Origin: Aquabacterium sp.
GTDB lineage: Bacteria > Pseudomonadota > Gammaproteobacteria > Burkholderiales > Burkholderiaceae_C
Length of the DNA stretch: 13,273 bases
Direction of reading: 5' to 3'
NCBI GenBank assembly: GCA_017989885.1
Contig: JAGNPA010000014.1
Span: forward strand, 1 to 13,273
The notes beneath the pieces are model-generated. The model worked only from the letters and a program-made list of their open reading frames with translations, searched no databases and was not told the DNA's origin. The position numbers and the translations under genes are program-made. Positions 275-11,473 of this stretch are shown one piece after another. Every line of letters starts with the position of its first letter. The stretch's first letter is position 1.

Positions 275-349
275 TGGTGCCCATGGGCAGGATCGAACTG
301 CCGACCTCCCCCTTACCAAGGGGGTGCTCTACCACTGAGCCACATGGGC
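275..349 (-). tRNA. tRNA-Thr (anticodon GGT)
   Basis: This is a 75-nt cloverleaf with encoded CCA (275-277). The acceptor strands GCCCATG (343-349) and CATGGGC pair perfectly. The anticodon loop TTGGTAA (313-319) carries GGT (315-317), so it reads ACC/ACU threonine codons. The T arm contains GTTCGATC. It is the last tRNA before tuf and is probably released from a common tRNA-tuf precursor. Confidence 0.97.
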
Positions 350-350
350 A

Positions 351-394
351 TCGACACAGGTCTGGACTTGGGATGAAACCCAAACCTGTGTCGA
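351..394 (-). repeat. Stem-loop between tRNA-Gly and tRNA-Thr, next to the tRNA-Thr 5' end
   Basis: The arms TCGACACAGGT (351-361) and ACCTGTGTCGA (384-394) form a perfect 11-bp stem. Inside it TTGGG (368-372) pairs with CCCAA (379-383) around the loop ATGAAA. The six bases CTGGAC (362-367) form a one-sided bulge. In the precursor transcript this structure would sit one base before the mature 5' end of tRNA-Thr. A role in RNase III, RNase E or RNase P processing is inferred. It has no T-run on either side, so it does not look like an intrinsic terminator. Confidence 0.75.
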
Positions 395-465
395 CTTGAC
401 ACTGCGACCTCCGCATCAACGAAGACCGCGACTTTACCACGCCTAAATTGACAGAACCGTGACCT

Positions 466-539
466 TGGAGCGGGAGACGGGAATCGAACCCGCGTCATTA
501 GCTTGGAAGGCTAAGGTTCTACCATTGAACTACTCCCGC
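466..539 (-). tRNA. tRNA-Gly (anticodon TCC)
   Basis: This is a 74-nt cloverleaf with encoded CCA (466-468). The acceptor GCGGGAG (533-539) pairs with CTCCCGC, and the discriminator base is T. The anticodon loop CTTCCAA carries TCC, which reads GGA/GGG glycine codons. The T arm contains GTTCGATTCC. It is the middle tRNA of the Tyr-Gly-Thr cluster, followed by a 116-base spacer that holds a long stem-loop. Confidence 0.97.
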
Positions 540-568
540 TCGGGAGTGATTCTCAAATTAGGTTTCCC

Positions 569-654
569 TGGTGGAGGAGGCTGGATTCGAACCAGCGTAG
601 GCGTAAGCCAACAGATTTACAGTCTGCCCCCTTTAGCCACTCGGGCACCCCTCC
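569..654 (-). tRNA. tRNA-Tyr (anticodon GTA)
   Basis: This is an 86-nt class II tRNA with a long variable arm and encoded CCA (569-571). The acceptor GGAGGGG (648-654) pairs with CTCCTCC, including one G-T wobble. The anticodon loop CTGTAAA carries GTA, which reads UAU/UAC tyrosine codons. The T arm contains GGTTCGAATCC. It is the first gene of the tRNA-tuf operon, starting 13 bases after the -10 box of a strong promoter. Confidence 0.97.
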
Positions 655-6580: not shown

Positions 6581-7165
6581 TCACATCTTCAGGAAGTTGG
6601 CCAGCATGGCATGGCCGTGCTCGCTCAGGATGGACTCGGGGTGGAACTGCACGCCTTCCAGCGGGGCGAAGTTCGGGTCGGTCTGCGGGCCTTTGTGACG
6701 CACGCCCATGATCTCGCCGTCGTCGGTCCAGGCCGTGATGGCCAGGCAGTCGGGCAGCGAGGCGCGCTCGATGGCCAGGGAGTGGTAGCGGATCACGGTG
6801 AACTGCTGGGGCAGGCCGGCGTAGACGCCTTGCTCGTCGGTGGTGATGACGCTGGTCTTGCCGTGCATCTGCTCCTTGGCGCGCACGATGCGCCCACCCA
6901 TGGCCGCACCGATGCTCTGGTGGCCCAGGCAGACGCCGAGGATGGGCAGCTGGCCGGCGAAGCGCTTGAGCGCGGGCACGCAGATGCCGGCTTCGTCGGG
7001 GGAGCAGGGGCCGGGAGAGAGCACCAGACGGTCGGCCTGGAAGGCGGCGATCTCGTCGAGGGTGACTTCGTCGTTGCGGACGACCTTGACCTCTTCACCC
7101 AGTTCGCAGAAATACTGCACCAGGTTGAAGGTGAAACTGTCGTAGTTGTCGATCATGAGCAGCAT
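6581..7165 (-). CDS. trpG: Anthranilate synthase component II, glutamine amidotransferase
   Basis: TrpG hydrolyses glutamine and channels ammonia to TrpE for anthranilate formation; in many bacteria the same subunit also serves folate (PabB) synthesis. The 194-aa class I amidotransferase has the DNYDSFTFN start (6-14), the oxyanion region [11 protein letters not shown] (50-60), the nucleophile Cys79 in GVCLGHQ (77-83), and the triad partners His175 and Glu177 in FHPES. I chose the ATG at 7163-7165, with AGGA 8 bases upstream, over an in-frame GTG at 7171 that would sit too close to that site. trpD follows after 10 bases. The 226 bases upstream hold a Trp-rich leader ORF, a -10 element and a stem-loop, so trpGD appears to be its own regulated unit, separate from trpE. 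Confidence 0.97.
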
Positions 7166-7301
7166 GGGCACGATCCTGTATCGGGATGTGGTTCATGGAA
7201 TGGCCTTGCACCATCCCTCAGTGTGTCCCCCTCGGAGACCCTTTGGAGGCGTCAGCTGCGGTGGGGTGCCGCGCGCGCAGGGTCATGCAGTGTGGCTGGC
7301 G
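7166..7301 (-). promoter_or_regulatory. trpG leader RNA between the leader stop and trpG
   Basis: This 136-base stretch follows the leader ORF. It contains the second arm of the Trp-codon stem-loop, an inverted pair CTGCG/CGCAG around a C-rich loop, a GACCC (from the CATGACCC run) that could pair with the later GGGTC, and a small hairpin GTCTCC-GAG-GGGGAC. No run of three or more T occurs, so a textbook intrinsic terminator is absent. Any attenuation would have to be Rho-dependent or act on trpG translation; this is inference from reading, not from folding. Confidence 0.45.
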
Positions 7302-7313
7302 TCACCGCCACCA
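7293..7313 (-). repeat. Stem-loop containing the tandem Trp codons of the trpG leader
   Basis: On the minus strand TGGTGGCG pairs with CGCCAGCCA around a GTGA loop of the GNRA type: eight base pairs with one bulged G. The 5' arm is the two adjacent Trp codons plus the next bases, and the loop contains the leader stop codon. This is the geometry of the 1:2 pause hairpin of amino-acid attenuators, in which a ribosome stalled at Trp would melt the structure. Confidence 0.65.
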
Positions 7314-7352
7314 ACGGGCATTCAGGCGAAAGAGATCCGAGGGTTGCTGCAT
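7302..7352 (-). CDS. trpL: Putative Trp leader peptide upstream of trpG (16 aa)
   Basis: The ORF reads MQQPSDLFRLNARWWR and stops with TGA. Two adjacent Trp codons sit next to last in a 16-residue peptide, the hallmark of a ribosome-stalling leader for tryptophan genes. It starts 137 bases upstream of the trpG start, the normal distance for an attenuator. A stem-loop with a GTGA loop uses the Trp codons as its 5' arm. The ATG has no Shine-Dalgarno and lies 7 bases after the -10-like TAGAAT (7360-7365), so transcription may begin at or next to the ATG (leaderless translation). Chance occurrence in a GC-rich gap cannot be excluded, since the ORF is short, but position, Trp pair and structure agree. 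The peptide itself is expected to have no function beyond sensing charged tRNA-Trp. Confidence 0.68.
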   Translation of the reverse strand: MQQPSDLFRLNARWWR

Positions 7353-7359
7353 GCAGACC

Positions 7360-7365
7360 ATTCTA
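7360..7365 (-). promoter_or_regulatory. Candidate -10 element of the trpGD unit
   Basis: TAGAAT on the minus strand (5 of 6 bases of TATAAT) lies just after the stop of the GGDEF-EAL gene (7392) and 7 bases before the leader ATG. No good -35 hexamer is seen at 16-18 bases, so the promoter may be weak or need an activator. The placement predicts a transcript starting at or beside the leader ATG. Confidence 0.45.
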
Positions 7366-7391
7366 CATGGGCGCCAAGGCGGCTGCAGGCC

Positions 7392-9752
7392 TCAGGCGTG
7401 GGCCTGCAGCCACTGTGTGGCGTCCGGAACGTCAAGAGGACGGGCGAAGTGGTAGCCCTGCAGGGCATGACAGCCGGCAGCGCGGGCGGCCTCGGCGTGG
7501 GCGGCGGTTTCGACGCCTTCGGCCACGACGTCGAGGTCGAGCACGGCGGCCAGGTCGCAGATGGCCTTGACCACGGCCACCGCGTGTGACTCGGGCATGG
7601 GGTCGATGAGGCTGCGGTCGATCTTGACGGTGTGCAGCGGCAGGCTGCGCAGCATGTTGAGCGAAGAGAACCCGGTACCGAAGTCGTCGAGGGCCACTTC
7701 CACGCCTTGCTGGCGCAGCTGGCTGATCTGCTCGCGGGCCTGGTCCATGTGGGCGACGGCGGCGGTTTCGGTGATCTCCAGGGTCAACCACTGCGGTGGC
7801 AGCTGGAACTGCGCCAGGGTGTTCATGACGGCGGACGGGAACTGGGCGTCGAGCAGTTGCAGGGGCGAGACGTTGACGGCCACGGGCACCAGCGGCAGGC
7901 CGTGCTCACGCCATTGCGCCATCTGGCGGCAGGCCTGGGTGAGGATGAGGGCACCGAGGGGCACGATGAGGCCGTTGCGCTCGGCGGCCGGGATGAAGTC
8001 GAGCGGGCTGATGCGGCCGATGCCCGGGCGGTCCCAGCGCACCAGGGCCTCGAAGCCGATGAGGCGGTGGCCGTCGGCGGCCACCTTGGGCTGGTAGACC
8101 AGGATGAACTCGTCGTTCTCGAAGCCGGCATGCAGCGCCTGCTCGGCCTCGAAGAAGGCGGCCAGGCCATTGCGCGGCACTTCGGTGGCCCATTGCACCG
8201 AGGTGCCGGGCAGACGCTTGGCTTCGAGCATGGCGGCGTTGGCGGCCTGCAGCAGGGCGTAGGGGCTGGTGGCGGGGCCGGGGTGCAGTGCGGCGCCCAT
8301 GGACACGTCGAGGAAGAAGCGGTGCGCGCTGAGCGTGAGCGGCTGGGTCAGCACGGTCTGGATGTCGTCGGTGAGCTGGTGCGCCGCAACCTGGGTGTCC
8401 GGGGCGACCAGCAAGATGGCGAACTCGTCCTCGCCCAGGCGCATCAGGTCGGCGCGCTCGCCCAGGGTCTGCAGTAGCTGCGCTGACAGGGCCTTGAGGA
8501 CCTCGTCGCCCACGGCCGGGCCATGGGCGTCGTTGAAGAGCTTGAAGCGGTCGACATCGAGCAGGATGAGGGCAAAGGCGGGCTGCTGCGGGTCGTCGAA
8601 CAGCTCGCGCAGGCGCTGCAGCAGGGCGCTGCGGTTGTGCAGGCCGGTGAGCTCGTCGTGGGTGGCGTGCCACATGAGGGCGCGGGCCGCCTCGTGCTGG
8701 GCGGTGTCGTCGGAGACCACCACCTGCAGGCCAGGCTCGCCATCCCATTCCACATTCCAGGCTTTGTAGCGCAGGTAGAGGCGGCGTCCGTCGAGAGAGG
8801 TGCGCTCGCCCTCCCACTCGGCCAGCGGCAGAGAGCCATTGTTCACCTGCGAGAGCAACTGCTGGATCGGTTTGCGTGCGGCCAGGGGCGTGGTGAGGTT
8901 CAGCCACTCGGGCGAGAACACCCGTGGCGCCTGCTCGACCCGGTTCATGCCGTAGATGCCCTGGAAGGCGGGGTTGATGTAGACCACATGCTGGTCCCGC
9001 ACCACGGCCACGCCCTGCGGAGACCGGTCGGTGAGCTGGAAGAAGCGGTCACGCACCCGCCGACCGGCTTCGGCCGAGCGGGTCAGGGCCGCGTACATCA
9101 GGGACATGGCCAGCATCAGCCGCAGCACGGTGGCCACGGCGGCCTGGGTCATGGCACCGGCATCGCCCGGGTGCACAACGAAGTTGAACTGATTGATGCC
9201 CGCCAACACCAGCAGGATGCCGGTGAAGCGCTCGCCAGGGCCTTGTTTGCGCAGCCAGCTGGCCACGATGAGGCTGATGGTGATGTTGATGGTGGCCGAG
9301 CCGGCTTGAGCCCACCTCATGTCGTGCCCCATGAGGGCACCGTGGGCCAGCAGCAGCACCACGAACAGGACCTGCAGGTGGCGACGCGAAACATGGCGTC
9401 CGGAAAACAGGCCGATGCCCTTGACCATCAGGATCAGGCACAGGGAGGGCACCACCGACAGCCCCATCAAACCGATCACCTTCAAGGCGACATCGGGCTG
9501 ACGGGCGACCAGGTAGGAAAGCGGGTAAGCCGTCCAGATCAGGTGGGACAGGCCCAGCAGCGCGGTGAACGATTGTTTGCGGTCGTGACGCCACACCAGC
9601 AGCAGAGCCAGGCCGGTGGCCACGGTGACAGCGATGTAAACGGAAAAGACGTGAAGCACGACCGATGCAGTGCGCTGCCAGACAGGCAAGCCAAGGGAAT
9701 GAGATCCCCATCCTGCCACACGCCAGCGCGGGCCGCCTCCCCCGACTTTCAC
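7392..9752 (-). CDS. Membrane PAS-GGDEF-EAL protein, probable c-di-GMP phosphodiesterase
   Basis: This 786-aa inner-membrane signalling protein probably hydrolyses cyclic di-GMP to pGpG. About seven hydrophobic segments fill residues 33-222, followed by a PAS domain (about 236-350), a GGDEF domain (about 365-520) and an EAL domain (about 535-785). The GGDEF core is degenerate (GEDEF, 440-444), so cyclase activity is doubtful and a GTP-sensing role is possible. The EAL domain keeps its known metal and catalytic residues: Glu568 in FEALVRW, Asn627, Glu659, Asp689-Asp690 in DDFGTG, Lys710, Glu745 in AEGVET and Gln765. The start is taken as the GTG at 9752 without a clear ribosome site; a shorter N-terminus is possible. 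The gene begins 44 bases after the trpE stop on the same strand, so trpE transcription probably reads into it. It separates trpE from trpG, which are adjacent in most relatives. Confidence 0.9.
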   Translation of the reverse strand: MKVGGGGPRWRVAGWGSHSLGLPVWQRTASVVLHVFSVYIAVTVATGLALLLVWRHDRKQSFTALLGLSHLIWTAYPLSYLVARQPDVALKVIGLMGLSVVPSLCLILMVKGIGLFSGRHVSRRHLQVLFVVLLLAHGALMGHDMRWAQAGSATINITISLIVASWLRKQGPGERFTGILLVLAGINQFNFVVHPGDAGAMTQAAVATVLRLMLAMSLMYAALTRSAEAGRRVRDRFFQLTDRSPQGVAVVRDQHVVYINPAFQGIYGMNRVEQAPRVFSPEWLNLTTPLAARKPIQQLLSQVNNGSLPLAEWEGERTSLDGRRLYLRYKAWNVEWDGEPGLQVVVSDDTAQHEAARALMWHATHDELTGLHNRSALLQRLRELFDDPQQPAFALILLDVDRFKLFNDAHGPAVGDEVLKALSAQLLQTLGERADLMRLGEDEFAILLVAPDTQVAAHQLTDDIQTVLTQPLTLSAHRFFLDVSMGAALHPGPATSPYALLQAANAAMLEAKRLPGTSVQWATEVPRNGLAAFFEAEQALHAGFENDEFILVYQPKVAADGHRLIGFEALVRWDRPGIGRISPLDFIPAAERNGLIVPLGALILTQACRQMAQWREHGLPLVPVAVNVSPLQLLDAQFPSAVMNTLAQFQLPPQWLTLEITETAAVAHMDQAREQISQLRQQGVEVALDDFGTGFSSLNMLRSLPLHTVKIDRSLIDPMPESHAVAVVKAICDLAAVLDLDVVAEGVETAAHAEAARAAGCHALQGYHFARPLDVPDATQWLQAHA

Positions 9753-9796: not shown

Positions 9797-11275
<1,479 letters not shown>

Positions 11276-11392: not shown

Positions 11393-11473
11393 TCAGGCAG
11401 GCGCAGCGCAGCGACGCCAGGGCCAGGCTCCCCGGTCGTGCGGACCTTTGGTCTGTTTGCGTGAGATGAACAT
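11393..11473 (-). CDS. trpL: Putative Trp leader peptide upstream of trpE (26 aa)
   Basis: The ORF starts MFISRKQTKG and contains AWPWRR at residues 16-21, so Trp17 and Trp19 are one codon apart (codons at 11423-11425 and 11417-11419); it ends at TGA 11393-11395. A short Trp-bearing ORF just upstream of trpE, with complementary segments between it and trpE, is the standard layout of transcription attenuation by tRNA-Trp charging. The ATG (11471-11473) has no Shine-Dalgarno and lies 6 bases after the -10-like TACACT, so the mRNA may be leaderless, as reported for the Sinorhizobium meliloti trp leader. A longer reading frame in the same phase runs upstream, but it would need translation from before the promoter. 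Confidence 0.65.
   Translation of the reverse strand: MFISRKQTKGPHDRGAWPWRRCAAPA

Follow-up and report, generated by a model that had tools for sequence, protein, structure and literature searches.

A candidate tryptophan leader before trpG in Aquabacterium, and integrative elements that appear to carry such leaders

A short ORF upstream of trpG in an Aquabacterium genome is probably a Trp-sensing leader serving trpGDC, one half of a trp operon that has been split, and at the same time what survives of the trpG-facing end of an integrative element, a reading to which we assign a probability of about 0.7. A little more tentatively, we regard it as likely that a family of elements interrupting trpG carries its own amino-acid-sensing leader, and that hosts have retained some of these leaders once the element had decayed, which leaves a trp cluster with two independent Trp sensors. 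The window analysed, by which we mean the whole stretch of DNA, comprises 13,273 nucleotides (contig JAGNPA010000014.1 of assembly GCA_017989885.1, here genome G000) and contains the following trp features:

6581..7165, minus strand: trpG, anthranilate synthase component II
7148..7165, minus strand: trpG codons 1-6, ATGCTGCTCATGATCGAC, the insertion core of elements in relatives
7302..7352, minus strand: type A Trp leader ORF, MQQPSDLFRLNARWWR and a stop, a type present in 23 of the 41 same-genus genomes with trpG
7360..7365, minus strand: -10 box TAGAAT, 7 bases before the leader ATG
7392..9752, minus strand: GGDEF+EAL gene between trpE and trpG (Pfam EAL, 9.6e-72; GGDEF, 3.7e-32)
9797..11275, minus strand: trpE
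11393..11473, minus strand: trpE leader ORF, MFISRKQTKGPHDRGAWPWRRCAAPA and a stop (W-P-W), with an AWPWR core in the genus
11485-11480, minus strand: -10 box TACACT of the trpE leader

The codons of the trpG leader, on the minus strand from 7352 to 7302, are ATG CAG CAA CCC TCG GAT CTC TTT CGC CTG AAT GCC CGT TGG TGG CGG TGA. Its Trp codons lie at 7313-7308, and the trpG ATG (7165-7163) is 137 positions below the last base of the leader stop. A sequence-only reading of the window had described precisely this 16-residue ORF, ending Arg-Trp-Trp-Arg-stop 137 bases before trpG, and the sequence agrees. The same reading held that a c-di-GMP protein gene cuts trpG off from trpE, and that the trpG leader is separate from the one at trpE; both statements are borne out, by the GGDEF+EAL gene at 9752-7392 and by the second, different W-P-W ORF at 11473-11393. 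It thus recognised the split and the separate leader, while the cause of the split and the origin of the leader escaped it. Among 41 genus regions, several of them ending at contig ends, 11 have a GGDEF+EAL homologue upstream of trpG. The AWPWR leader precedes trpE in 29 of 32 genus regions, the other three being G015 and G019 (both cut off) and G021 (without leader). The window also contains consecutive genes for tRNA-Thr, tRNA-Gly and tRNA-Tyr (275-654, minus strand).

The distribution of the leader was assessed with a rule requiring an ATG- or GTG-started ORF of 10-32 amino acids that ends in WWR-stop, WR(K/Q/T)P-x(1-3)-stop or WRWR(x)-stop. This rule was drawn up once leaders had been seen, and the weight therefore rests on the controls and not on the match rate. 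trpG was present in 41 of 42 same-genus genomes at E values up to 1e-70. Before trpG, the rule matches in 33 of the 35 same-genus genomes in which trpE and trpG are apart, compared with none of the six in which they are adjacent. The family set consisted of 107 other genomes with an upstream trpG span of 0.9-1.5 kb, one of which was dropped for having only 5 upstream bases. In these other genera, matches were found in 10 of 17 genomes without trpE upstream, and in none of the 89 with it. Altogether, none of the 95 genomes in which trpE lies shortly before trpG (6 from the genus and 89 from the family) has the leader. Seven of the 17 family genomes without trpE upstream yielded no rule match, and hand inspection adds looser candidates. 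Applied to the antisense strand, the rule gave no matches, and it gave 0 among 2,080 mononucleotide-shuffled windows. The short Trp-rich ORF before trpG looks like a genuine tryptophan sensor. As for the independent Trp sensing at trpG suggested earlier, comparison favours it (an own leader, a -10-like box and the pattern in split genomes), the support being comparative throughout.

Type A leaders, of the form MQ(Q/H)...WWR-stop, occur in 23 genus genomes with 16, 17, 18 or 19 codons. These 23 ORFs share the MQ(Q/H) start and the WWR-stop and differ in between. Type B leaders, ending WR(K/Q)Pxx-stop, are found in nine genus genomes and in G041; seven of the nine tabulated in the genus have a single Trp codon. 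Outside the rule fall G004, with a variant leader, and G035, whose leader is truncated on a contig starting 185 bases before trpG. No leader was found in G033, G029, G027, G028, G021 and G014, where trpE lies 24-93 bases from trpG. In G033 (L151), the trpE-trpG gap of 90 bases retains the TAGAAT box and the ribosome-site region of type A and the leader ORF is absent, which looks like secondary loss of the leader. In G095 (L232), a trpE-type leader ending DRGAWPWRQPHCAAC and a stop, with a TACACT box, stands before trpG instead of trpE. The leader types are scattered on a trpG-trpD tree, requiring 12 changes for four states where the least possible is 3, on a topology with long branches for one outgroup row and for G021 and with the outgroup not on one side. 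On this tree, G011 (type B) sits inside the type A group of G000, G023 and G030.

Elements with a tyrosine integrase were detected in trpG codons 1-6 in seven genomes of four genera, some of them fragmented or incomplete. Four belong to the genus of the window (G011, G008, G001 and G007) and the other three (G093, G410 and G250) to three other genera. All seven have a left junction in which the core ATGCTGCT(G/C)ATGATCGAC is followed by CAGCCCC or CAACTTC. To the left of the core lies a type A leader in G011, G008 and G001, a type B-like leader in G007, G093 and G250, and trpE itself in G410. The right end comprises, in order, a -10-like box, a Trp-leader ORF, a ribosome site, six trpG codons and the intact trpG, and the leader there is of type B in all seven. 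Both ends are on one contig in G011, G008, G093 and G410, with core-to-core distances of about 21.6, 21.0, 18.9 and 20.6 kb, respectively; in G001, G007 and G250 they are on different contigs. The first four have an integrase, a core duplicated on one contig and an intact target, the features by which 5'-end integrative elements are defined. Elements in which a core base has changed escape the exact-core pattern; G250, whose right-end core differs by one base, gave one match. Second core matches in G311, G277 and G433 were rejected as elements, being unrelated sequence or an overlapping contig end. The right end L280:4130-4401 had no plasmid match.

G011 and G008 show the arrangement in full, with trpE and trpG on one contig more than 20 kb apart. 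From the left, the type A leader and trpG codons 1-6 give way to foreign sequence, after which come tandem GGGTATC repeats and an integrase frame of 408 aa; the right side has a second repeat pair, then the type B leader, ribosome site, the same six codons and intact trpG. Tandem GGGTATC repeats occur at both ends in G011, G008, G001, G007 and G410, and in G093 and G250 they were observed at a single end. In G410, the truncated trpG start follows the trpE stop by two bases, which indicates that the insertion itself split an adjacent trpE-trpG pair. In these relatives, insertion of the element cuts trpG from its upstream region and supplies a replacement Trp leader.

The left flanks were compared with the native trpG upstream region of sister genomes, and identity was 92.9-97.3% in seven of nine comparisons. 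That of G011 is 97.3% identical to the window (G000), 93.6% to G030 and 94.5% to G023; that of G008 is 96.4% identical to G002 and that of G001 is 97.3% identical to G036 (184 columns) and 92.9% to G026. For G007, the value is 93.6% against G015 (141 columns). The two low comparisons are G008 with G004 (67.4%) and G007 with G034 (65.3%). Against the right end of their own genome, the left flanks of G011, G008, G001 and G007 reach 73.3, 66.8, 62.9 and 76.9%. The right ends of these four genomes are 91.6-97.6% alike, compared with 84.1-90.6% for their trpG codons, in a comparison that covers 6 of the 28 computed pairs; in pairs with G015, and in most pairs with G032, right-end identity is below trpG identity.

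The integrase contains the domains Arm-DNA-bind_3, Phage_int_M and Phage_integrase. At E values up to 1e-110, close relatives were retrieved from 4 of 42 genus genomes, which are the four with left junctions. With the best four candidates per genome considered, at least 3 of 399 family genomes carry it at 1e-130, each with a trpG core 2.9-3.4 kb away, and at least 8 of 399 order genomes at 1e-110. The left trpG core is present in all seven integrase genomes of the genus and family. Among the eight order genomes, which include G692 and G546, a trpG-start core precedes the integrase exactly or nearly in G517, G460, G749, G798 and G751 and in decayed form in G677; by eye, the end of trpE lies directly before the core in G517, G460, G749 and G798. 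None of the right ends of G798, G749, G677 and G751, all from other families, has a rule-fitting leader: that of G798 lacks a Trp ORF, and the other three have Trp-containing ORFs of other kinds. The leader is therefore not a general part of trpG-targeting elements, and on these sequences it characterises those in the window's family and not all those seen. A second G517 integrase (L390), with 47% identity to the query, adjoins a different gene end, which by eye we take to be the 3' end of ychF. No integrase relatives were found in the examined flanks of 80 named-genome loci.

The window itself contains what may be the decayed counterpart of such an end. Its leader occupies an equal place relative to the core, with an equal layout of -10 box, leader and hairpin, and a further stretch lies where elements have their repeats:

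7223..7241, minus strand: GGGTCTCCGAGGGGGACAC, where elements have tandem GGGTATC repeats

This stretch is possibly a decayed form of the tandem repeats, a homology judged by eye; GGGGGTATCCGAGGGGGTATC occupies the corresponding place in G035, and the intact tandem is found at element right ends. No left trpG remnant was found in the region left of the window's trpG, and no close integrase in its genome, which is 75% complete. Lacking the integrase and left remnant that mark an integrative element, the window holds at most a decayed end, and the case for an element origin of type A is accordingly one of resemblance. With that basis, it is probable that the type A leader of the window descends from an older element of this sort, whose integrase and left end have since been lost.

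TAGAAT or TACAAT stands 6-7 bases before the ATG in all 23 type A genomes, and in all 32 tabulated leaders of types A and B a -10 box is found 6-8 bases before it (counting from the second ATG for G015 and G032). The -10 boxes of the trpE leaders are at about equal distance from the start. Such a position points to transcription beginning at the leader AUG or close to it. Between 7100 and 7450 of the window, a sigma-70 scan gave no -35/-10 pair, and Rfam covariance models gave no match up to an E value of 5. At gathering score, Rfam identified only seven tRNAs and one cobalamin riboswitch in 17 loci, and no leader family; the riboswitch (L189:340-577) is close to the trpG leader in G159. As in leaders of the trpL kind, a short uORF precedes a trp gene and contains Trp codons that are adjacent or nearly so. 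We found no intrinsic terminator with a U-tract in 7100-7450, and therefore describe the region as attenuator-like and do not class it as an attenuator. The RNA elements considered are:

7297..7310, minus strand: hairpin UGGCG-GUGA-CGCCA, with the second Trp codon in the 5' arm and the stop codon in the loop
7237..7284, minus strand: hairpin closed by GACC (7284-7281) and GGTC (7240-7237), with covarying closing pairs
7337..7343, minus strand: leader codons CCCTCGG, complementary to CCGAGGG at 7235-7229

In type A, the first hairpin is UGGCG-GUGA (or GUAA)-CGCCA and begins with the last Trp codon; it is invariant in type A1, so that covariation provides no test of its pairing. At the matching place, UGGC-GNAA-GCCA is present in all nine genus type B leaders, with a G(U/C/G)AA loop, and in 12 of 20 other tabulated leaders. 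For the GACC/GGUC hairpin, two of the four closing pairs change on both sides among 15 rows (AU to CG in five, CG to UA in three). The CCCUCGG/CCGAGGG complementarity is retained in 15 of 15 distinct rows and never varies, and thus shows no covariation. Compared with 500 shuffles, the whole structure, which was derived from the same alignment on which it was scored, exceeds all 500 in its share of paired cells, cells changed on both sides and covariation score, and does not stand out in pairs changed on both sides (83/500) or pair types (226/500). Folds of the alignment show the start of the leader pairing with the start of trpG, often no better than in shuffles (P from 0.000 to 0.84), and for the window region taken by itself the fold does not beat shuffles (z -0.92, with 29 of 200 shuffles as good).

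We propose that translation of the leader would begin at a start codon that lies at the 5' end of the transcript or close to it. When charged tRNA-Trp is scarce, ribosomes would stall at the Trp codons in the 5' arm of the hairpin with the GNRA-type loop, and stalling would alter the fold between leader and trpG such that trpG is expressed. With enough Trp, a closed fold would keep trpG low, the output being either Rho-dependent termination or masking of the trpG start.

Elements could have acquired the leader from their hosts. If it originated in a host whose trp operon had come apart for other reasons, and elements at the start of trpG later picked it up by recombination, type A leaders would be expected in genomes without the integrase, as is common in the genus, and the elements of other families without a rule-fitting leader would fit too, as they imply that the leader is not intrinsic to elements. 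We nevertheless think this rather unlikely. The G410 insertion splits an adjacent trpE-trpG pair and has the leader only on the element's right end; the right ends of G011, G008, G007 and G001 are more alike than their trpG codons in the six of 28 pairs given above, pairs with G015 and most with G032 differing; and leader types change repeatedly on the trpG-trpD tree. It is more doubtful still that the ORF belongs to a plain Trp attenuator such as Pseudomonas has before its separate trpGDC operon, with the neighbouring mobile elements being incidental. Two Pseudomonas loci do share the layout, with no trpE within 1.5 kb upstream of trpG and an ORF ending RWRWR(G/A), and attenuation of P. putida trpGDC is reported (Olekhnovich and Gussin 2001, cited in PMC8297930); yet such an attenuator accounts poorly for a leader found at the right end of all seven family elements with a left junction and in none of the 95 genomes whose trpE lies shortly before trpG.

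The remaining alternatives deny the ORF a role. The inverted repeat UGGC-GNAA-GCCA might be a DNA site for an integrase or regulator, with the ORF as a by-product; a short inverted repeat does lie at the element end, and its 16-base form occurs in 67 viral contigs. In none of these 67 was the insertion core or tandem repeat found within 320 bases of the hairpin motif, so the motif alone proves nothing. We hold the DNA-site explanation to be very improbable, since in G011 and G008 the inverted repeat is not beside the left-end tandem repeats, and since type A has a different repeat while the Trp codons and open frame are kept at four lengths. That the ORF is an untranslated chance frame with two Trp codons agrees with the unremarkable folding of the window region, and was already disfavoured by the conservation, the controls and the constant position of the -10 box; it is scarcely credible.

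We know of no mobile-element origin for the attenuation of trpE and trpGDC in Pseudomonas putida. That attenuation was described by Olekhnovich and Gussin (2001), as cited in the accessible text of PMC8297930, and it resembles the present case in having two separate trp transcription units, each with attenuation there and with candidate leaders here. The earlier supposition that two Trp leaders in one trp cluster were undescribed is not supported, given this report of two attenuated Pseudomonas units. For the P. aeruginosa trpGDC leader, a legend in the same source mentions premature 3' ends next to a GTG uORF, whereas the window's leader is known from sequence alone. Before trpG in the Pseudomonas loci L133 and L137, we observed a GTG-started ORF ending ARWRWR(G/A)-stop, which may be that uORF. 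In Sinorhizobium meliloti, the trpL transcript starts at the leader ATG (PMC7298713, in the portion available); like the window's leader, trpL has Trp codons and serves one part of a split trp pathway, the ATG start being reported there and inferred here. According to the same portion, only trpE(G) of the three S. meliloti trp operons is attenuated and a terminator is described. The window differs in having leaders at both halves and no U-tract terminator found before trpG. The part of PMC4833913 available contains nothing on Burkholderiales.

For the elements, the closest parallel is provided by the dusA-specific islands, including IMEVchUSA3, integrase elements that insert in the 5' end of a housekeeping gene, leave the old 5' end behind and supply a new promoter and start (PMC8409611 and PMC4482086, in the parts available). 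The trpG elements resemble them in inserting there and in leaving the old 5' end behind, and would likewise supply a promoter and start; they differ in their target, in a supplied 5' region that holds an ORF with Trp codons, and in that their ends were read from sequence and not from excision. As the supplied region contains a Trp leader, the replacement appears to extend from expression to regulation. SXT, a conjugative element in the 5' end of prfC, is covered by the same excerpt of PMC8409611, which mentions no amino-acid leader for it; the trpG elements, by comparison, keep six core codons, or nearly so. Neither an element at trpG nor one carrying an amino-acid leader was found in the searched open-licence PubMed Central literature. 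In Pseudomonas, attenuation of both halves of a split trp pathway is already known; an element-borne amino-acid leader was not found in print. Where known repair islands supply a promoter and start, the part supplied here appears to include a nutrient sensor, so that the element would restore the gene's regulation along with its expression. Such repair could account for the use of a biosynthetic gene as an integration site, for trp operons becoming split yet staying controlled, and for the horizontal spread of leader peptides.

The trpE-trpG gap also emerges as an island site, with restriction genes and other genes of defence type. The G011 element encodes type I restriction genes, a Schlafen/AlbA protein and a SIR2-nSTAND protein, and type I restriction genes are also present in the elements of G008, G093 and G410. 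Defence-type genes were observed in the trpE-trpG gap at L279, L280, L281, L287 and L362. The elements additionally carry a protein matching Pfam Integrase_1 and a small RelA/SpoT-domain protein (L281:6108-8372, L371:3128-3754). According to the accessible part of PMC4686621, Xanthomonas arboricola has either a T3SS cluster or an hsd island next to trpG, which hints that island sites bordered by trpG also exist outside Burkholderiales.
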